Origin: Sphingobacteriaceae bacterium
Lineage (GTDB): Bacteria; Bacteroidota; Bacteroidia; UBA7662
NCBI GenBank assembly: GCA_030682795.1
Contig: JAUXNJ010000018.1
Location: forward strand, 25,504 to 89,503
Direction of reading: 5' to 3'
Length of the DNA: 64,000 nucleotides
Shown here: positions 4,837 through 15,210 of the stretch, piece by piece
Layout of the letters: the number at the start of each line of letters is the position of its first letter
Position numbering within the stretch: position 1 is the first letter of the stretch
Position numbers and translations under genes: made by a program
The notes under the pieces: generated by a model
Database searches by the model: none
What the model saw: the letters and a program-made list of their open reading frames with translations, nothing else
What the model was told of the DNA's origin: nothing

Positions 4837-5493
4837 TTAAATCAATATCCCCAGCAACAGAAAGAAAGCCAGCTGAAACAACCAGTAGCGCATGAGCATG
4901 GGGTTGTTGGTAGTGACTTTAAAGGCCTCAAATCCCCATAAAACAGCAAAAGAAAAGAGCCACCAAGCCAAGTAATTTTGCCACGGAGCCACAAAAAGGG
5001 CATCGAAAGGCGGTTGCACCCAGTTCCAGAACTCAAAATATACGGCTACGGGTTCAATGAGCACATCGCTGAGGGTAACGGCGGTGGCGCCTACCAGCGG
5101 CCGGAGCCAAACAGATACACCAATGCGGTTGGCTAGCTGCGCAGCGGCATAAATGAGAATGGTCCAGTTGATGCCAATGATCAGCGGCACGCCCAAGAGC
5201 TTGGGTCCGAGCACCTCGCCATAGGCATATTCGCCAAAAACGAGTCCGGTTGCTACCCCAGCCCATTCCACCAAAAAACCCGCCATCCACACCACCAACA
5301 GCATCCACCAAAGTTTAGGCTGCCGCATTTGCTCGAACCACAGCAAGTGGACCGCGCCAAAAAGCAAGGTATAGGGGGTAAAAAAGAGGAAAAAAGAACG
5401 GGTGGCGGGCCAAGCCAAACCAAGCGCACCAAAGCCATACACCATGGCCCAAAAAACCGTAAACACATTTATTTGACGAACCGATCTTTCCAC
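4837..5493 (-). CDS. Carotenoid biosynthesis protein (DUF422; CruF-like 1',2'-hydratase family)
   Basis: Integral membrane protein with EWAGVATGLVFGEYAYGEVLGPKLLGVPLIIGINWTILIYA and DVLIEPVAVYFEFWNW motifs; sits in crt cluster. Confidence 0.8.
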   Translation of the reverse strand: MERSVRQINVFTVFWAMVYGFGALGLAWPATRSFFLFFTPYTLLFGAVHLLWFEQMRQPKLWWMLLVVWMAGFLVEWAGVATGLVFGEYAYGEVLGPKLLGVPLIIGINWTILIYAAAQLANRIGVSVWLRPLVGATAVTLSDVLIEPVAVYFEFWNWVQPPFDALFVAPWQNYLAWWLFSFAVLWGFEAFKVTTNNPMLMRYWLFQLAFFLLLGILI

Positions 5494-6575
5494 TTCAGAC
5501 GACGCATTTGAAAATCATACAAAGCACGGAGCAACAACCATTGCCAACTCAGCCATTGGACCAGGCCGAGGCCCAGATTCAGCGGCAGACTGTCTCCAGC
5601 GCTACGGGTGACAAAGATACGGGTTAAAACGAGGGCTGGGAGTAAAATCAGCAGCTGCAAAGGCATTTTGATGGCCAAAAGCAGCCAAATCCAACCCGTT
5701 ACCAGCGCATAAAAGAGCAGCAACAGCGGCTGATGTTGAAATCCGGGTACCAGCGTTTTTGCAAAACCTGCCAAAGCTTCTTCGCCATGCTGGTACATGC
5801 GGCATTGCAACTGGGGATGGGCGGCCAGCAGGGCCATGCCGCGGAGCGACTGCGCTTTGAGCAGGCGCATGATGGCCACATCTTCCACAATTTGGTGCTT
5901 CACTTGCTGGTGCCACTGGTATTGGCGGTACGTTTGGCCATCGAAGAGCATGAACTGTCCATTGGCGACGGCCAAACCCGACCATTTGGTGTTTTTTACC
6001 AAAAGCAGCGGCAGCCAAGTGAGCAGCAAGTGGTGCATAAAGGGTACCAACAGCATTTCTCCCCAGCTGCGGGTGATTTGTTGCGGGAAAACAGACAACA
6101 GCTGCAGTTGGTGCTGCTGGAGATAGGCCAAGGTAGCATGCAAGGCGCTTTCGTGCAGGCGAACGTCGGCATCTAAAAAAAGCAGGTAATCGCCTTGGGC
6201 GTGCTGGGCGAGCTGATAGCAAGCATGACTTTTACCGAGCCATGCTTCTGGCAGTGGTTGTGCGGGGAGCAGCCGGCCGCGGGGGTCCTGTTGAATGGCG
6301 ACTTTGACGAGATCAGCGGTGCCGTCGGTCGATTCATCGTCGTACACCAGCCATTCGAGCTGCGGGTGGGTAAAGGCGCTAATTTGCTGGAGGAGGGCTG
6401 GCAGTCGCTCAGCTTCGTTGCGGGCTGGAATGAGGATACTTATTTTAGCGATTGAATCGGGCGCAGCGGCATGGGGGAGCTTGATGGGACTGAAGTAATT
6501 CGACCCAGCAATGAGCAGGCGAAGGCTGGTGAGTCCTGCTAAGAACCAAAATAGTATTTCAAAAACGTGGTTCAT
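5469..6575 (-). CDS. Family 2 glycosyltransferase, CrtQ-like
   Basis: GT-A fold signs ILIPARNEAERLP, DDESTDGT, WLGKSHACYQLA, FLDADVR; start chosen at MNHVF, 4-nt overlap with upstream gene. Confidence 0.82.
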   Translation of the reverse strand: MNHVFEILFWFLAGLTSLRLLIAGSNYFSPIKLPHAAAPDSIAKISILIPARNEAERLPALLQQISAFTHPQLEWLVYDDESTDGTADLVKVAIQQDPRGRLLPAQPLPEAWLGKSHACYQLAQHAQGDYLLFLDADVRLHESALHATLAYLQQHQLQLLSVFPQQITRSWGEMLLVPFMHHLLLTWLPLLLVKNTKWSGLAVANGQFMLFDGQTYRQYQWHQQVKHQIVEDVAIMRLLKAQSLRGMALLAAHPQLQCRMYQHGEEALAGFAKTLVPGFQHQPLLLLFYALVTGWIWLLLAIKMPLQLLILLPALVLTRIFVTRSAGDSLPLNLGLGLVQWLSWQWLLLRALYDFQMRRLKWKDRFVK

Positions 6576-7195
6576 GGCCGCTGCTGCAGCTCGGCTGCGA
6601 TTAATTCTGCTAATCGACGTTGGCAAGCTCCTTGGAAGTCGCGATACGAGGCCTCTAAGTCCATGGCATCGGCTGATTCGGATATTTTTAGAAAGTGATA
6701 CCGGCTTGGGCGTGATTTGTTGGCGAATTCAACGGCTGAAAACACAAAAACCACCTGCCAATCGAGCAAATGTAATCGGTTCAGCAGCCCTTTTTGGAAA
6801 TGCAGCTCCCCTGCTTGTGCAGCGCCAATGCGGCCTTCGGGAAAAAGGAGGAGTAAGTTGGCTGGATCCTTGGTCAGTGCCTGCAGTCGCGCCAGCATTT
6901 GCAGCTGCTCCCGTCCTTTTGGGAGTCCGATGGCCCCCAAAGCCGCTAAAAACGGTCGTTTTTGCAATTCCGCCTCGAGCATCAATACGTTAAAACGTCT
7001 TTTCCAATGCCCGGCATTGCGCAACAACATCCAGGCGCCATCCCACCAGCTGATGTGGTTGCCGAGCAATAAAACGGGCTTTTGAGCATCAAAGGGCACC
7101 TCTTGCCAGTATTTCCGGCGAAAAAACAATCGATCTACCAGTCCAAACCAGCCCAGGAAAAACCACCTGTAAAACCGATTGAGGAGCTGCTGCAT
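6572..7195 (-). CDS. 1-acyl-glycerol-3-phosphate acyltransferase-like (PlsC family)
   Basis: GNHISWWDGAWMLL (NHxxxxD) and LFPEGRIG motifs. Confidence 0.85.
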   Translation of the reverse strand: MQQLLNRFYRWFFLGWFGLVDRLFFRRKYWQEVPFDAQKPVLLLGNHISWWDGAWMLLRNAGHWKRRFNVLMLEAELQKRPFLAALGAIGLPKGREQLQMLARLQALTKDPANLLLLFPEGRIGAAQAGELHFQKGLLNRLHLLDWQVVFVFSAVEFANKSRPSRYHFLKISESADAMDLEASYRDFQGACQRRLAELIAAELQQRP

Positions 7196-7198
7196 GGG

Positions 7199-8728
7199 TT
7201 AATGTTTTCCTTGGATGAGTTCGGTGGTGATGCGGGCCGAGAGTAAGCAAAGGGGAATACCACCGCCCGGATGTACGCTTCCGCCCGCAAAATACAAACC
7301 TTTTACGGTGGCATGGCGGTTCGACTGCCGTAAAAAGGCTGCCCATTTGTTGTTGGATGCGGGACCATAAATGGCACCTCCTACCGAGCCGGTGTTGCGT
7401 TCAATGTCGCGCGGGTCCATCACCGTTTCGTGTAAAATGAGGTCCGCAATGGGCACTTTGAGGGTGTGAGACAGGTGCTGGTGCAGATAGATTCTGGTTT
7501 TGGCAATGTAGGCATCCCAGTCCTGCCCCGCATTTGGCGGCGTATTCACCATCACAAACCAGTTTTCATGGCCATGGGGCGCATCGGCTCGGTGGTTTTT
7601 ACTGCTGATGTAAACGTAAATGGTGGGATCGCTGGTGAGCTCGCCCTTGGCAATGGCGTGAAACTCCCTCTTGTAATGGGAGCTAAAAAAGATGTTGTGC
7701 AAATCTAGCGCCGGGTACTCGCCTTTCATGGCCCAATGGTAAATGATGGCCGAGCTGCTTAATTCAGGCGCTTTTTGGGTGTTTTTACGCATATTTCGGG
7801 GGTACATGCTTGCCCGCACCTGCATCACATCTACGGCACTCACCACCAAGGTAAAAAGTTCGCGATCGTCACCAATGGTAACCCCTTTCAGCTTCTTGTT
7901 GTGAATGAAAAATTTATCGACCCGGGTGTTCAATCGCACCGTCACCCCTAGCTTCTCCATCAATTTGGACAAGGCATTTCGGATGGCAATCATCCCGCCT
8001 TGGGGATAAAAAGCGCCTTTGCCATGTTCAATGTAAGAAATAAGATTGAGCGTGGCGGGGGCCTTGTAAGGATTTGAACCGTTATAAGTGGCAAAACGGT
8101 CGAACAGCTGCACCGTGCGCCAATGCTTGAACCACTTTTTATTGAAGCGGTGCATGGTGCCAAAAACGCCCAGCCAAGGCACGCGCAAAACCTTCAAAAA
8201 GGTGGAAAAGCGCAACAGATTGCTCCAATCTTGCAGCGAGCGGTCTAAAAACACCGGCGCGGTGGTGTCGTACATGAGCTTGGCACGCTTGAAGTAGGCT
8301 TTGGTGCGCGACTGCTCCTCGCCGATTTGCTGTTCGAGTTCGGCCGCAAACTGGTCGATGTTGCTGAAAGCGTTCACCCGAGTGCCATCGGGATAAAAAT
8401 AGCGGGTGACCAGTTCAAGCTGGTCGTATTGCAAATAATCGCTCAGTTTTTCACCACAATCGGCAAATAACTCCTCGAGCAATTCGGGCATCGTAAACAG
8501 CGAAGGACCTTTATCGAACCTGAAGCCCTCCCAGCGTTCATCGGTGAGCTTGCCGCCCAACTCGGCACCGGCTTCAAACAAAGTGACTTTATATCCGGCC
8601 CTGGCCAAGCGCGCGGCTGTGGCCATGCCAGAGATGCCGCCACCTACCACGCCAGCTGTTTTAGTGGCGCTGGTCACTGCAGAACGGTGTTTTTTACGAT
8701 GCGTATGTTCGGTGCTCATAGGAAGCAA
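7199..8728 (-). CDS. CrtI-family phytoene desaturase/carotenoid oxidoreductase (CrtD-like)
   Basis: N-terminal GGGISGMATAARLARAGYKVTLFEAG dinucleotide-binding motif; C-terminal YFAGGSVHPGGGIPLCLLSAR. Confidence 0.9.
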   Translation of the reverse strand: MLPMSTEHTHRKKHRSAVTSATKTAGVVGGGISGMATAARLARAGYKVTLFEAGAELGGKLTDERWEGFRFDKGPSLFTMPELLEELFADCGEKLSDYLQYDQLELVTRYFYPDGTRVNAFSNIDQFAAELEQQIGEEQSRTKAYFKRAKLMYDTTAPVFLDRSLQDWSNLLRFSTFLKVLRVPWLGVFGTMHRFNKKWFKHWRTVQLFDRFATYNGSNPYKAPATLNLISYIEHGKGAFYPQGGMIAIRNALSKLMEKLGVTVRLNTRVDKFFIHNKKLKGVTIGDDRELFTLVVSAVDVMQVRASMYPRNMRKNTQKAPELSSSAIIYHWAMKGEYPALDLHNIFFSSHYKREFHAIAKGELTSDPTIYVYISSKNHRADAPHGHENWFVMVNTPPNAGQDWDAYIAKTRIYLHQHLSHTLKVPIADLILHETVMDPRDIERNTGSVGGAIYGPASNNKWAAFLRQSNRHATVKGLYFAGGSVHPGGGIPLCLLSARITTELIQGKH

Positions 8729-8821: not shown

Positions 8822-9661
8822 TTAGAGCATATTGAGCTTGTTCGACATCATCGAATACACTAGCAAAGCGGCTTTTTCGGCATTCGACACTCGCACCCGC
8901 GATTCCATGATTTGCTTGGAATTGACCTTGCAAATTTTATTGAACAGGTTGCGGTAAAAACGATAGGCCGTTAATACCCCAATGCGTGAACCTTTGGGCA
9001 ATTGAATGATGCCGGCATAGGCTTTGTCGAAATCGAGCTCAATGTCTTTCTGGATTTCCAACTTCGCGGTTTCGTCGAGGGCAATGCCCAAGTTTACATT
9101 CGGAAAGTAGGTGCGACCACGGCTCAAATAATCGTCCTTGATGTCACGCAAGAAGTTTACTTTTTGGAAGGCGGCTCCCAAATGGCGTGCAGATGGTGTT
9201 AGGCGGTCGTACATTTCTGTATCGCCATCGCAAAACACACGCAAACACATCAATCCTACTACTTCGGCAGAGCCGTAAATGTATTCTGTATAATTCTCCT
9301 CAGCATACTCAATGTCCTGCAAATCCATCTCCATGCTTTTCAAAAAAGCATCGATGAGGGGCATTTCAATGCCAAAGTGCTTCACCGTATCTTGAAACGA
9401 ATCTAAAACAGGGTTCAAGCTGATGCCCCGCTCTAAAGCCAAATAGGTATCGCGCTTAAACTCTTCTAGCAAGGTGCGCTTGTCGAAATCGTGGAAAGTG
9501 TCTACAATCTCGTCGGCATAACGTACGAATCCGTAAATGGCGTAGATGGGATCGCGGTATTTTTTGTCGAAAGCCAAAATCCCCATGCTGAAGGAAGTGC
9601 TGTAGTTACGCGTAATGATGCGGCTACATTCGATGTTTGTTTTGCGGTAAAGTGACAACAT
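8822..9661 (-). CDS. crtB: Phytoene/squalene synthase family protein
   Basis: YSTSFSMGILAFDKKYRDPIYAIYGFVRYADEIVDT and LRDIKDDYLSRGRTYFP (DxxxD) motifs; start at MLSLYRK. Confidence 0.9.
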   Translation of the reverse strand: MLSLYRKTNIECSRIITRNYSTSFSMGILAFDKKYRDPIYAIYGFVRYADEIVDTFHDFDKRTLLEEFKRDTYLALERGISLNPVLDSFQDTVKHFGIEMPLIDAFLKSMEMDLQDIEYAEENYTEYIYGSAEVVGLMCLRVFCDGDTEMYDRLTPSARHLGAAFQKVNFLRDIKDDYLSRGRTYFPNVNLGIALDETAKLEIQKDIELDFDKAYAGIIQLPKGSRIGVLTAYRFYRNLFNKICKVNSKQIMESRVRVSNAEKAALLVYSMMSNKLNML

Positions 9662-9694
9662 ATGCGGGAATTTGATATACAACAAGGAAATATA

Positions 9695-11176
9695 CTAATT
9701 GTTTGGGAATTCTTTGAATATCTCTTCAGCTATTACTTGTCCCGAAATGATGGTAGGTGGCACTCCTGGCCCTGGAACGGTTAATTGGCCGGTAAAATAA
9801 AAATTGTCAAGCTTCTTGTTTTTGAGTTGCGGCTTCAAAATAGCGGTCTGCAGCAAGGTATTGGCCAAGCCATAGGCATTGCCGCGGTAGGCATGGTAGT
9901 CGGCTTTGAAATCGTTGTGCGCGTAGCTGCGTTTGTACACCACGGCATCGCGAATGCTCTGCCCGATGAGGCGCTCGAAGCGGTCCATGATGAGGTTGTA
10001 GTATTTTTCGCGGATGGCTTCGGTATCTTCCAAATCGGGTGCCAGCGGAACAAGGATCACCAGGTTTTCGCAACCTTCAGGTGCTACCGAAGGGTCTGTT
10101 TTGCTGCTGAGGGAAGTGTAAAACAGCGGCTTGCTCGGCCATTTGGGATCGGTGTAGATGTCGTGCGCATGCTGATCGAACTCCTCATCGAAAAACAGGG
10201 TGTGGTGCGTGAGGCCTTCGAGGCGTTTGTTGAGGCCGATGTAAAAAAGCAGACTCGAAGGGGCCATGGTGCGCTTTTTCCAATAATATGGCGTATAGTT
10301 GCGGTGCTCGGGCTTGAGCACTTTTTGGTCGATGTGGTGGTAGTCGGCCCCCGCCACTACAATGTCGGCCTCGAAAGTACCTGCGGTAGACTGCACTGCT
10401 GTTGCTTGGCGGCCTTTGGCATCTATAGCAGTGACTTCGGCGTTATAGATAATTTTGACGCCCTTTTCTTCGGCCAAACTCACAAAGGCCTTCACAATTT
10501 CAAACATCCCGCCTTGAGGGTACCAAGTACCGAGCGACAAATCGGCATAATTCATCAAACTGTATAAAGCAGGGGTGTTTTGCGGCGTTGCGCCCAAAAA
10601 GAGCACCGGAAACTCCATGAGCTTGATGAGCTGCGGGTGACTGAAAAATTTGCGCACGTGCTTGCTCATGCTTTGAAACACATCCATGCGCAATACATCG
10701 TACAGCAATTTGGGCGAGGTAAACTCGGTGATGCTGCGACTGGGTTTGTAAACAAGGTTGTTGATGCCCACTTCGTATTTGTAAGCCGCTTGCTTCAAGA
10801 ACTCCCGCAAGCGTAATCCCGCCCCTGGCTCGTAGCTGTCGAACATGGCCTCGAGTTCGGTCATGTCGGCGGGAATCGTCATGCGATCGTTTTCGCCAAA
10901 CACAATGGTGTAACCCGGACTCAAACGCACGAGCTCGTAATAGTCGCTCGTTTTTTTGCCAAAGCGATTGAAATAGGCATCAAACACATCAGGCATCCAG
11001 TACCAGCTGGGGCCCATGTCAAATTTATAGCCTTCGGCTTCAAATACACGGGCGCGGCCTCCGGGGGAATCGTTTTTTTCGAGTAAGGTAACTTGGTAAC
11101 CGCGATCGGCCAGGGTGGTGGCGGCGGATAGTCCGGCAAATCCCGAACCAATAACAATGACTTTTTTAGCTGACAT
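9695..11176 (-). CDS. crtI: Phytoene desaturase
   Basis: VIGSGFAGLSAATTLADRGYQVTLLEKNDSPGGRARVFEAEGYKFDMGPSWYWMPDVFD; C-terminal YFTGQLTVPGPGVPPTIISGQV. Confidence 0.92.
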   Translation of the reverse strand: MSAKKVIVIGSGFAGLSAATTLADRGYQVTLLEKNDSPGGRARVFEAEGYKFDMGPSWYWMPDVFDAYFNRFGKKTSDYYELVRLSPGYTIVFGENDRMTIPADMTELEAMFDSYEPGAGLRLREFLKQAAYKYEVGINNLVYKPSRSITEFTSPKLLYDVLRMDVFQSMSKHVRKFFSHPQLIKLMEFPVLFLGATPQNTPALYSLMNYADLSLGTWYPQGGMFEIVKAFVSLAEEKGVKIIYNAEVTAIDAKGRQATAVQSTAGTFEADIVVAGADYHHIDQKVLKPEHRNYTPYYWKKRTMAPSSLLFYIGLNKRLEGLTHHTLFFDEEFDQHAHDIYTDPKWPSKPLFYTSLSSKTDPSVAPEGCENLVILVPLAPDLEDTEAIREKYYNLIMDRFERLIGQSIRDAVVYKRSYAHNDFKADYHAYRGNAYGLANTLLQTAILKPQLKNKKLDNFYFTGQLTVPGPGVPPTIISGQVIAEEIFKEFPNN

Positions 11177-11201
11177 ACGATTGTAAATACGGAATAACAA
11201 C

Positions 11202-11233
11202 AAAAAAGGGAAAGCTTGGTTTGCTTTCCCTTT
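11202..11233 (-). terminator. Terminator-like hairpin between the sigma factor and crtI
   Basis: AAAGGGAAAGC (11205-11215) / GCTTTCCCTTT (11223-11233), perfect 11-bp stem; T6 follows on the minus strand. Confidence 0.75.
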
Positions 11234-11255: not shown

Positions 11256-11783
11256 TTATGCCGCATGCAAGCCATACATCTCGCCATAAACCTTCAAACG
11301 CTTCTTCAGCACCTGGCGGGCTAAGTGGATGCGGGTTTTCACCGTTCCGATTGGAATACCAAAGTGGTCAGCAATTTCTTGGTATTTGTAGCCGCGGTAG
11401 TTCATCATAAAGGCCTCCTTTAATTCGAAAGGCAATTTGGCGATGGCAGCCTGGATATCGTCCATGGCCATCTTCTTTTCACCACCATTGCTGTCGGCAT
11501 GTGATGGACTGTTGAGGTAATAATCGTTGTCGGTAGAGTCGAGGAAAGTATTGCGTTTCACCCGGCGACGGTAATTGTTGATGAAGGTGTTTTTCATGAT
11601 GGTGTACAACCATCCCTTCAAATTGGTGTCTTCAGTGAATTTGGTGTAATTCGAAAAAGCCTTTAAAAAAGTCTCTTGTAATAAATCGTTCGCTTCTTCC
11701 CTATCCTGGGTGAGGTATAAGGCGTAAGCCTTGAGAGAGCTGGCATGCTCTTTTACTTTGGCGGTAAAGGTTGTTGGCTTCAT
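11256..11783 (-). CDS. ECF RNA polymerase sigma factor (sigma-70 family)
   Basis: Region 2 DREEANDLLQETFLKAFSNYTKF..NLKGWLYTIMKNTFINNYRR; region 4 YRGYKYQEIADHFGIPIGTVKTRIHLAR. Confidence 0.93.
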   Translation of the reverse strand: MKPTTFTAKVKEHASSLKAYALYLTQDREEANDLLQETFLKAFSNYTKFTEDTNLKGWLYTIMKNTFINNYRRRVKRNTFLDSTDNDYYLNSPSHADSNGGEKKMAMDDIQAAIAKLPFELKEAFMMNYRGYKYQEIADHFGIPIGTVKTRIHLARQVLKKRLKVYGEMYGLHAA

Positions 11784-11792
11784 TTGTTGAAC

Positions 11793-12000
11793 GTTTAATT
11801 GAATTGCTTAAACAAACGTACTACAAGAAATCCAACTTTCCAAATATCTGTTTAACTTTTATCCACAAATAGTTAAACAAAAATTAGAGACCGAGGGCTG
11901 ATTTAGCAATACAAAGGCTCCAATGCGTACAAATTTGAATTGAATCCGCAAAAAAGCCAACCGAATATATGTTTAACCTTTATGTTAAAAAGATTAAACA
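11793..12000. promoter_or_regulatory. Cluster of three TGTTTAA(C)-type inverted repeats upstream of the ECF sigma gene
   Basis: GTTTAA 11793-11798/TTAAAC 11808-11813; TGTTTAAC 11849-11856/GTTAAACA 11872-11879; TGTTTAAC 11970-11977/TTAAACA 11994-12000. Confidence 0.6.
11813..11844 (-). promoter_or_regulatory. Bacteroidota-type promoter of the ECF sigma gene
   Basis: Minus strand TTTG (11844-11841) - N20 - TACGTTTG (11820-11813). Confidence 0.7.
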
Positions 12001-12004
12001 AGAC

Positions 12005-12457
12005 TCATTTTTTAAACACCCGCTTATAAATCGGCCTGCGGTACAACATCAATCCCGCAAAAAGGGGTCGTGCTAAAAAGGCCGGCAGCCAAAAGGGCGT
12101 GGTAAACTGTAGCTCGTCTACAATGCGGGTGCCGCCTTCAGGCATAGCTTCTAGCAAATGCTTGTGCTGCCAGCTGCGCAGGAAAAATGGCAGTTGCACC
12201 CCTTTGTCTATAAAATAAAAAGCAGTTGCCGTTTGCTGCTGCTCGGTGATCACACTTCTCCATACCTGCTTAAAGAAGATGAAGTTCAGCTCTATCCACA
12301 CCTCGTTGCCGGGCGTCTCCCCATCGTAGCGCAATAATTTGGCGGGTGGAAAAGGCGGATTGAGCTGCTCAAGCAAGCTGCGGGTGAAGGCAGCACGCAC
12401 TTCGGGCAAGGAAGCAGCTACTTCAGTGGCAACGCGAACGTGAATGGGTGTGGACAT
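12005..12457 (-). CDS. SRPBCC-family (ligand-binding/START-like) protein
   Basis: Short protein of VRVATEVAASLPEVRAAFTRSLLEQLNPPFPPAKLLRYDG... YFIDKGVQLPFFLRSWQHKH type; family call tentative. Confidence 0.55.
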   Translation of the reverse strand: MSTPIHVRVATEVAASLPEVRAAFTRSLLEQLNPPFPPAKLLRYDGETPGNEVWIELNFIFFKQVWRSVITEQQQTATAFYFIDKGVQLPFFLRSWQHKHLLEAMPEGGTRIVDELQFTTPFWLPAFLARPLFAGLMLYRRPIYKRVFKK

Positions 12458-12563: not shown

Positions 12564-13106
12564 ATGGCACATCAGCGTTTCAATCCTTGGCACCACACCG
12601 CAACCGACTTCAACCCCAACGGCCATGTAAATGGCATCATCGAAATCCCCAAGGGCAGTCGCGCGAAGTACGAGCTTGATAAAGACAGTGGTTTGCTGCG
12701 ACTCGACCGCGTGCTGTATTCATCGGTGTATTACCCGGCCAATTATGGTTTTATTCCGCAGACCTATTGCGACGACCGCGACCCGCTCGACATCCTCATC
12801 CTTTCCCAAATAGAAATGCAGCCGCTTTGCATTGTACCCGCCAAAGTCATTGGTGTGATGCGGATGTTAGACCAGGGCGAGGCCGATGACAAGCTGATTG
12901 CCGTGGCCGCTGGCGACCCGAGCGTGAACCATTATAACGACATCAGCGAATTGCCGCCGCATTTTATCAGCGAAATGCGCAACTTTTTTGAAGATTACAA
13001 AAAGCTGGAGCACAAAGAGGTGATTGTGGAAGATTTTCTCGGGCACGAAATGGCGATTCAGATTTTAGAAGAAGCCTTGGCCCTTTATCAAACAGAAATC
13101 GCTTAA
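12564..13106 (+). CDS. ppa: Inorganic pyrophosphatase
   Basis: [48 protein letters not shown] motifs. Confidence 0.95.
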
Positions 13107-14644
13107 AGCGCATCGATGTTTTGCAAGTAGTGCGCGGCTTGCCGGCGTAAAGCCTCTTGCTGCTCCTGCCCCATCTTGTCCCAGGTACGGTACACCATGC
13201 CGATGCGCGGGTTTTTCTCAAGCTTCTCGCGGTGTCGGGCGTGGAAGTCCCAGTAGAGGCTGTTGAACGGACAAGCACCCGGACCGATCTTGACCTGCTT
13301 TTTATACGCACAACCCTTGCAATAGTCGCTCATCTTATCAATGTAATTGGCGCTCGACACATACGGCTTGCTGCCCACGATGCCGCCATCGGCGAACTGG
13401 CTCATGCCGCGGGTGTTGGTAATCTCCACCCACTCTACCGCATCTATATATATACCCAGGTACCAGGCGTCCACCTCATCGGGATGCACCCCTGCCAGCA
13501 AGGCGAAGTTGCCGGTGATCATGAGGCGTTGGATGTGGTGGGCATAGGCGGTTTCGAGCGACTGGGTGATGGCATGTTTGAGGCAGTTCATTTTGGTTTC
13601 GCCGGTCCAGAACCAGCTCGGCAGCGGCCGGTCGTGCTCAAAGAAATTCATGTGATAATAGCCCGGCACATGCGCCCAATAAATGCCGCGCATGTACTCC
13701 CTCCAGCCCAATATTTGGCGGATGAAGCCTTCTACTGCCGCCAAGGGATAGCGGCTGGGGTGCCGGCGCCAAGCTTTTTCAGCGGCCTCCACCACTTCTT
13801 GGGGAGAGATGAGTTTGAGGTTGAGGGCAAACGAAAGGCGCGAATGGAACAAAAAACGGTGCTCTTGGGTCATGGCGTCTTGATAGGCGCCAAATTGAGG
13901 CAGCATTTCTTCGATGAAAAAAGTCAGTAGGGTTTGGGCCTCGGGCGGATTGATGGGCCAGTGTAGCTGCTGCTTGGCCATGCTGCCGAGGGTTTTTACC
14001 CCTTGCGCTTCCAGCAGGGCGATAAACTCGGTGGCATCATGCGTGGGCAGTGGTGGCTCGGGGAAGCGGGTGCCGGCGGGTACCGACTGTCGGTTTTCGG
14101 CATCGTAGTTCCAGCGATCGCCTACGGGTTCGCTGCCCTCCATCAAAACGCGGTGTTTGCGGCGCATTTGGCGGTAAAAGCTTTCCATGAGCCAGGTCTT
14201 TTTGCCCTTGAACAAGGCGGCGGCCTCGTCGCGGGTGCTGAAGAAGTGCTCGGTGTCGAAAATGCCGTAGCTCAAACCGAGCTCGGCGGTAAGCTGGCGC
14301 AGTTGTTTGTCGAGCCGGTATTCGTCGGGTAGCTGGTACTCGAACCGGCGCGCGCCTGTGGCGGCCAAAATCAGTTGAATGTTGGCGGGAATGCTTTGCT
14401 GGTTGCCGGGCTCGTCGAGGCGGATGTAATACACCTCATGCCCCTGCTCCTTGAGCCAAGCGCCAAAACTGCGCATGGCCATAAAAAAGCCTACTACCTT
14501 TTGTAGATGGTGCTGCACATAGTCGGTTTCACTGCGGCACTCCATCAGTATATACAGGGTACTTTCAGATTTTTCGCTGTACCAGCTGTGTTTGCGGTTA
14601 AGCTGGTCGCCCAAAACAAGGCGGATGGTGGTGTATCGTTTCAT
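13103..14644 (-). CDS. Cryptochrome/photolyase-related protein (DPRP; FeS-BCP/(6-4) photolyase-like)
   Basis: [13 protein letters not shown] start, [54 protein letters not shown], Cys-rich C-terminus ([22 protein letters not shown]); start at MKRYTT. Confidence 0.9.
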
Positions 14645-15210
14645 ACGTAAATGAGGCCTTCTTGCGGGTCGCCGTAAATGTTGGCTTGTTGCTGCTGATG
14701 GCGGACGCCCACACAAAGCGCCAGCAGGGCATCGAACTGGTGCCAATTGCTGGCGGCAGGCAAACTTAGTTCAAAATGGGTTTGGAGCAGCTCTAGACAA
14801 GCGGCTAAATCTTTGGTATCTTTTTTATACATTAAAGCTTGGGAGCCGATTTGTCGCCATAGGCCAGCGGGATAGGCTTCGTAAGTGGAGAGACCTTGCT
14901 GTTGCCAACGGTTGGCCAACCGCATGGCCCGGGCGGTGAGTCCACCTAAAAACAAAGGCGACATACACGCCAGCTCGCGGTCGCAGGCCCGGTAAAAATA
15001 GTCGTTGCCGTTGTTGGTATACACCCCGGGCAGACTCAGCGGCGCGTCGAGGTAAATGGCTTGGGGCTGGATTTCGGCGATCAACGCTTCTAAAAAGGCA
15101 TCTGCATCTTCCTTTTTACCACTTTGTCGCAGTTCTATGCTGCTACCGTTTGGCCACGCACATACCGTTGTGCCCGCCATTTTACTGCCGTAATCTATCC
15201 CACAAATCAT
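14641..15210 (-). CDS. DUF429-like domain protein
   Basis: MICGIDYGSKMAGTTVCAW start, AIYLDAPLSLPGVY, AMRLANRW.QQGLSTYEAYPAGLW; start chosen at 15210 inside the longer ORF. Confidence 0.7.
   Translation of the reverse strand: MICGIDYGSKMAGTTVCAWPNGSSIELRQSGKKEDADAFLEALIAEIQPQAIYLDAPLSLPGVYTNNGNDYFYRACDRELACMSPLFLGGLTARAMRLANRWQQQGLSTYEAYPAGLWRQIGSQALMYKKDTKDLAACLELLQTHFELSLPAASNWHQFDALLALCVGVRHQQQQANIYGDPQEGLIYV

Follow-up and report, generated by a model that had tools for sequence, protein, structure and literature searches.

In the characterised CarH systems, the protein binds its operator in the dark in a manner that depends on adenosylcobalamin (AdoCbl) and is released by light (PMC8156234). 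The CarH proteins of Thermus thermophilus, Bacillus megaterium and myxobacteria combine a MerR-type DNA-binding domain with a B12-binding domain, carry the W-x9-EH and ExHxxG signatures, and act at operators that overlap the primary-sigma promoter of carotenoid genes and are built of tandem 11-bp direct repeats with the core TnnACA (PMC9304148). In Streptomyces coelicolor, the regulator acts through a cascade, from the CarH/LitR protein to the sigma gene litS and from there to the crt genes (PMC12705666). The class II LitR proteins of Pseudomonas, PplR1 and PmlR2, recognise two dyads of the form T(G/A)TACA-N12-TGTA(C/T)A, placed over -35 and between the start site and the ATG, and the light signal of P. 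mendocina passes through a LOV protein (PMC9758184). Within the Bacteroidota, the crt genes of Chryseobacterium lacus (Flavobacteriaceae) are raised by light, in a study that left the regulator unidentified (PMC7064467). Here, we describe a stretch of 64,000 nucleotides from a Sphingobacteriaceae bacterium (contig JAUXNJ010000018.1; the window in what follows), in which inverted repeats surround the promoter of an extracytoplasmic function (ECF) sigma-factor gene at the head of a carotenoid cluster. The evidence, all of it comparative, indicates with a probability of roughly 0.87 that these repeats are the operator of the only CarH/LitR-type B12 photoreceptor-repressor of the genome. The kind of regulator and its logic are already known; apparently new are the pairing and inverted layout of the operator sites and their occurrence across the class Bacteroidia. 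No paper on this operator, or on a light switch in Bacteroidia, was found in the open-access literature, a search that lay outside most subscription papers and RegPrecise-type regulon databases.

Three sites upstream of the sigma gene fit the single motif TGTTTAAC-N14/15-GTTAAACA (Table 1). Upstream of the -33 box, 4 bp separate it from site 2, which is 65 bp away from site 1; site 3 lies another 121 bp upstream of site 2, where the next gene has just ended with its stop codon. Both are as described in an earlier, sequence-only reading of this DNA, which had proposed a multi-site operator at the sigma promoter; the form TGTTTAAC-N16-TTAAACA that it gave for site 3 is the dyad of site 2 with one mismatch. 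The two sites have ATATnTGTTTAACnTTTAT in common, as had also been noticed, with an identity of 76% across 41 nt. Site 3 is an auxiliary site, and no counterpart at the same position was found in the relatives examined. The minus-strand promoter of that reading was likewise confirmed in the sequence; it is placed between sites 2 and 1, and its -7 box, TACGTTTG, has its TG in common with site 1. E. coli-type promoters were looked for and none was found. The promoter-proximal repeat was indeed present at the -7 box, but in another register: the dyad spans 11785-11814 and not 11793-11813, where GTTTAA-N9-TTAAAC had been read. The inner TTAAAC of the N9 register is lost in more distant relatives, whereas the half-site offset of 22-23 bp is kept, and for this reason TGTTTAAG in site 1 is to be paired with the outer GTTCAACA. 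In this register the site starts with the final TG of the -7 box, contains the predicted transcription start and the 5' leader, and leaves a single base between its end and the start codon of sigma at 11783.

The frequency of the motif in the genome was analysed with shuffled and reversed controls. Shuffles of the window yielded 0 matches to the dyad. In the 3.14-Mb genome, 0.0015 exact dyads are expected from base composition and one, site 2, was observed. When the N15 form was scanned with up to three mismatches, the top matches were site 2, with none, and site 3, the only N15 match with one. In the N14 scan, C40:145441 has one mismatch and three matches have two, namely site 1, which is thus among the four best N14 matches genome-wide, a pterin operon treated below, and C41:140978. 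Matches with three mismatches showed no excess over the reversed-pattern control (31 versus 64; 27 versus 47), and therefore the strong sites do not merely represent the upper end of a frequent sequence class. Scores within the window are 27.4, 25.1 and 19.1 bits for the three sites and 9.0 for the next best match. The motif being equally frequent at random, an outcome that the sequence-only reading had named as speaking against it, is therefore contradicted by these counts.

The same reading had stated that no LitR/CarH-like gene lies in the window. This is correct, and the one CarH-type gene of the genome sits on another contig. The genome encodes exactly two MerR_1 proteins, one of 113 aa and one of 295 aa (C15:106406-107290). 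The latter has an N-terminal MerR-type DNA-binding domain (PF13411, 63.1 bits) and a C-terminal B12-binding-like domain, and the Protein Data Bank CarH entries 3whp and 5c8d (Thermus CarH) match residues 3-242 of its 295. It carries WQTGSINPAHEH (W-x9-EH, helical domain) and EFHELG (ExHxxG, B12 domain); among the 63 sequences examined, the two signatures occur in 63/63 and 55/63, respectively. NCBIfam CarH was its best match of all models, yet at 104.8 bits against an equivalog cut-off of 400, and by sequence the protein is a CarH relative and not a curated orthologue. In possessing B12-photoreceptor residues it departs from the LOV-dependent system of P. mendocina. A gene of the ATP:cobalamin adenosyltransferase family is encoded in the genome, which makes a supply of AdoCbl plausible. 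The reading frames of carH and of a crtZ-like hydroxylase gene (assigned by reading the translation, with no NCBIfam match) overlap.

Support also came from the comparison of 100 genomes, which comprised the genus, family and order of the window together with one or two members of many other families of the class. The nearest relatives have diverged in the spacers but retain both the dyad at the -7 box and another some 63 bp upstream of it. Taking dyads with up to two mismatches, a site was found upstream of the sigma homologue in 51/55 genomes with carH and in 0/6 genomes without it (Fisher p = 4e-6, an optimistic value that overstates independence, given that the genomes are related); outside the family of the window, the counts are 36/40 and 0/6. 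Two points that had been left for checking are thus confirmed: orthologous sigma genes have the motif upstream, and it co-occurs with a LitR/CarH-like gene. Shuffled upstream regions never reached the scores observed for the sigma-upstream sites. In a search of the 100 genomes for perfect dyads, 21 were retrieved from 21 genomes, all of them carH-positive (hypergeometric 9e-6), and in 19 cases an ECF sigma homologue or carH follows within 160 bp downstream of the dyad. The remaining two are in keeping with this pattern: G029:C41:14159 belongs to a cluster that contains sigma, epimerase-like and DUF4397-like genes, with carH at a distance of about 4-5 kb, and that on G040:C16 is upstream of a DUF4397-like gene (names from reading the translations). 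The carH and sigma genes are adjacent and in the same direction in 19 genomes of the class other than that of the window, with the dyad between them in several (G035, G047, G048, G054, G069, G073). A regulator gene linked to the cluster was also considered and set aside, as a set of 80 loci showed no convincing carH in the roughly 4 kb around sigma. On the sigma protein tree, dyad-less branches (G059/G098, G051/G091 and paralogues in G076/G033/G093) arise from within dyad-bearing groups, and dyad labels cluster more strongly than in any of the shuffles. The dyad-less homologues include clades from carH-less genomes as well as extra paralogues. One genome, G093 (C21, C30, C37), has four sigma homologues; three were scored, and a dyad was present only at the homologue adjoining carH.

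A matrix of 52 sites showed that TGTTTAA is nearly invariant and that C is preferred at the eighth base (0.62). The half-sites are inverted, with 8-bp arms set 22-23 bp apart from start to start, and the spacer is 14 in 37 sites and 15 in 15. Since GTTAAACA, written GT-T-AA-ACA, contains TnnACA, the half-site holds the core of the CarH direct repeats, and the core positions are 0.94-0.97 conserved in the 52 sites. They do not form the tandem 11-bp direct repeats of characterised CarH operators. Among 61 sigma upstream regions from carH-positive genomes, at least two sites are present in 47 and one in 9; the regions from carH-negative genomes have sites in 0/11. The distance between the sites that flank the promoter is 62-65 bp in the family of the window and many others, and elsewhere 33-36, 42-44 or 52-54 bp. 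Where a TAnnTTTG box overlaps the dyad (44 cases), its last G falls at offset 1 (32), 11 (5) or 22 (4), that is, in steps of about one helical turn. The paired-site distances are also, for most, suggestively close to whole helical turns. A phase test with one value per family gave strong clustering near 10-10.5 bp, and on the 11 distinct values p = 0.002-0.005 only, with values hand-picked from the site geometry and families that are related.

These results are consistent with the following mechanism. In the dark, AdoCbl-bound CarH would occupy the sites and exclude the RNA polymerase with the primary sigma factor from the ECF sigma gene. Occupancy of site 1 would cover the -7 box, the start site and the leader, and that of site 2 would lie at the -33 box, an arrangement that fits repression for this reason. 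In the light, the Co-C bond of AdoCbl would be broken and CarH released, so that the ECF sigma factor could be made; the carotenoid genes behind it would then be switched on through read-through, through the new sigma factor, or both. Binding by CarH, dark repression and release by light are proposed from homology to characterised CarH proteins, and the action of the ECF sigma factor on crt promoters by analogy to LitS of Streptomyces. The immediate target would be an ECF sigma gene, unlike in the characterised CarH systems. With dyads at the sigma gene and crtI-crtB downstream of it, the proposed cascade resembles that of LitR-LitS; the predicted operator here is placed on a Bacteroidota -33/-7 promoter. 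Two dyads are also found with PplR1 and PmlR2, although their recognition sequence is unlike the dyads described here.

Some observations weigh against this reading. The known CarH operators are direct repeats and the dyads here are inverted, with 14-15 bp between 8-bp arms; in the genome of the window, carH lies apart from sigma and lacks a dyad upstream; four carH-positive genomes (G018, G022, G041, G072) have no strong dyad upstream of sigma; and the relatedness of the genomes inflates the significance of the co-occurrence. The inverted geometry and the unlinked carH would also be expected if some other regulator, such as a helix-turn-helix repressor or a partner of the ECF sigma factor, bound the dyads and merely travelled with carH. 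We consider this improbable, although it is the best of the alternatives: the dyad is missing from carH-less genomes and from sigma paralogues, the half-sites contain the CarH core, no other regulator recurs beside the sites in the loci inspected, and the dyad is found in G075 upstream of carH-crtI-crtB, with no sigma gene seen nearby, and in G082 between carH and crtI. The earlier proposal of a multi-site operator tied to a LitR/CarH-like regulator is thus supported, with carH present in the genome and the predicted binding sites occurring together with carH across genomes, while the register of site 1 had to be changed and the sites are inverted, unlike the tandem repeats of known CarH operators. 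Autoregulation of carH was also considered for the genome of the window and discarded, as the upstream dyad is absent, though some relatives have one (G075, G048, G024, G095).

Slightly less probable still is that CarH binds these sites and activates, with site 2, directly upstream of -33, as the activating site. Streptomyces LitR has been described as promoting litS transcription in the light (PMC12705666), whereas the placement of the sites in the present case speaks for repression: in most genomes, site 1 overlaps the -7 box, start and leader in a fixed register, which fits blocking, and the CarH proteins of Thermus, Bacillus and Myxococcus as well as the class II PmlR2 are repressors (PMC8156234, PMC9758184). 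Control of the photolyase/carotenoid region by an SOS/LexA-type system, which a photolyase-related gene nearby and the palindromic sites might suggest, is very improbable, since the SOS motifs of Bacteroidetes, GGA-N5-TCC and CTAA-N5-TTAG (PMC8565304), differ from the dyads in sequence and spacing. Short dyads are common in AT-rich DNA such as this region, and the half-site alone is unremarkable, but chance or a repetitive element as the origin of the repeats is practically discounted by the shuffles, by the expected count and by conservation of the dyad in over a dozen families, whose spacers have diverged.

Returning to CarH as the repressor, a more specific and rather doubtful extension of the model is that one dark CarH tetramer bridges two helically phased dyads, clamping or looping the promoter, and that light opens this structure, as a switch used throughout the Bacteroidia. 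Bridging, if true, would be a mode of DNA binding by CarH, with inverted sites and a promoter clamp, that has not been seen with tandem-repeat operators. Confirmation of the inverted, helically phased sites would extend the plasticity of DNA binding by CarH beyond tandem repeats, and would provide optogenetic parts usable on Bacteroidota promoters. Pigmentation is widespread among Bacteroidota, many of which inhabit water or soil exposed to light, and carotenoids induced by light have been recorded in the phylum without a known switch (PMC7064467). The present analysis offers a testable operator, regulator and target for the whole class, together with a motif for predicting the light regulon.

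This predicted regulon comprises the sigma-crt genes, a pterin operon and DUF4397-like genes. In all three genomes of the genus (G000, that of the window, G001 and G002), a dyad with one to two mismatches lies upstream of an operon that comprises folE and genes for a 6-pyruvoyl-tetrahydropterin synthase-like protein and a short-chain dehydrogenase. The operon fits a light-protection regulon because folE, cryptochrome and photolyase genes are light-induced under class II LitR in Pseudomonas (PMC9758184). Two cryptochrome/photolyase-like genes flank it in G001. Both G001 and G002 have carH and the pterin-operon dyad and no sigma homologue at E <= 1e-30, and G001 is 96% complete; the sigma arm was possibly lost. 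The DUF4397-like proteins, recognised by reading the translations, are secreted repeat proteins encoded at L222:3329-5092 and L238:3679-5382, in the carH/sigma cluster of G029 and behind the perfect dyad of G040.

Table 1. Probable operator sites, promoter and neighbouring features. Positions refer to the window except for the pterin-operon dyad.
Feature	Position	Strand	Remarks
Operator site 1	11785..11814	-	TGTTTAAG-N14-GTTCAACA; 2 mismatches, 19.1 bits; register kept in relatives
Operator site 2	11849..11879	-	Perfect dyad TGTTTAAC-N15-GTTAAACA; 0 mismatches, 27.4 bits
Operator site 3	11970..12000	-	TGTTTAAT-N15-GTTAAACA; 1 mismatch, 25.1 bits
Promoter of the sigma gene (-33/-7)	11813..11844	-	TTTG-N20-TACGTTTG; Bacteroidota primary-sigma type
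ECF-type sigma-70 gene	11256..11783	-	175 aa; PF04542, PF08281; orthologues found; predicted first target of the operator
Terminator-like hairpin between sigma and crtI	11205..11233	-	Strong hairpin
crtI, phytoene desaturase	9695..11203	-	NCBIfam CrtID over cut-off
crtB, phytoene synthase	8822..9685	-	PF00494
CrtD-like carotenoid desaturase	7199..8728	-	Above the cut-off of TIGR02734 and slightly below that of NF042421
Acyltransferase, family 2 glycosyltransferase and PF04240 carotenoid biosynthesis genes	4837..7195	-	Complete the cluster
150-aa protein upstream of the operator	12005..12457	-	SRPBCC-like from reading the translation; neighbour kept in genus g3
Photolyase-related protein (DPRP)	13103..14746	-	PF04244; conserved neighbour
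Pterin-operon dyad	G000:C9:100598-100627 (L255:3599); also L256:2424, L257:3046		All three genomes of the genus

The names of several neighbouring genes come from reading of translations and not from a family match; the 150-aa protein upstream of the operator had no match in Pfam or NCBIfam. In loci of the Pedobacter and Mucilaginibacter type (L052-L055, L068, L069, L075 and similar), in which no carH was found within about 4 kb, the sigma gene has a different arrangement, with a crtZ-like gene on one side and crtI/crtB on the other. In locus L026, the same place between sigma and crtI is occupied by another hairpin, which has a T run behind it. Given the hairpins in the window and in this locus, sigma and crtI may be transcribed separately, and crtI may therefore need read-through or a promoter of its own, possibly a sigma-dependent one.
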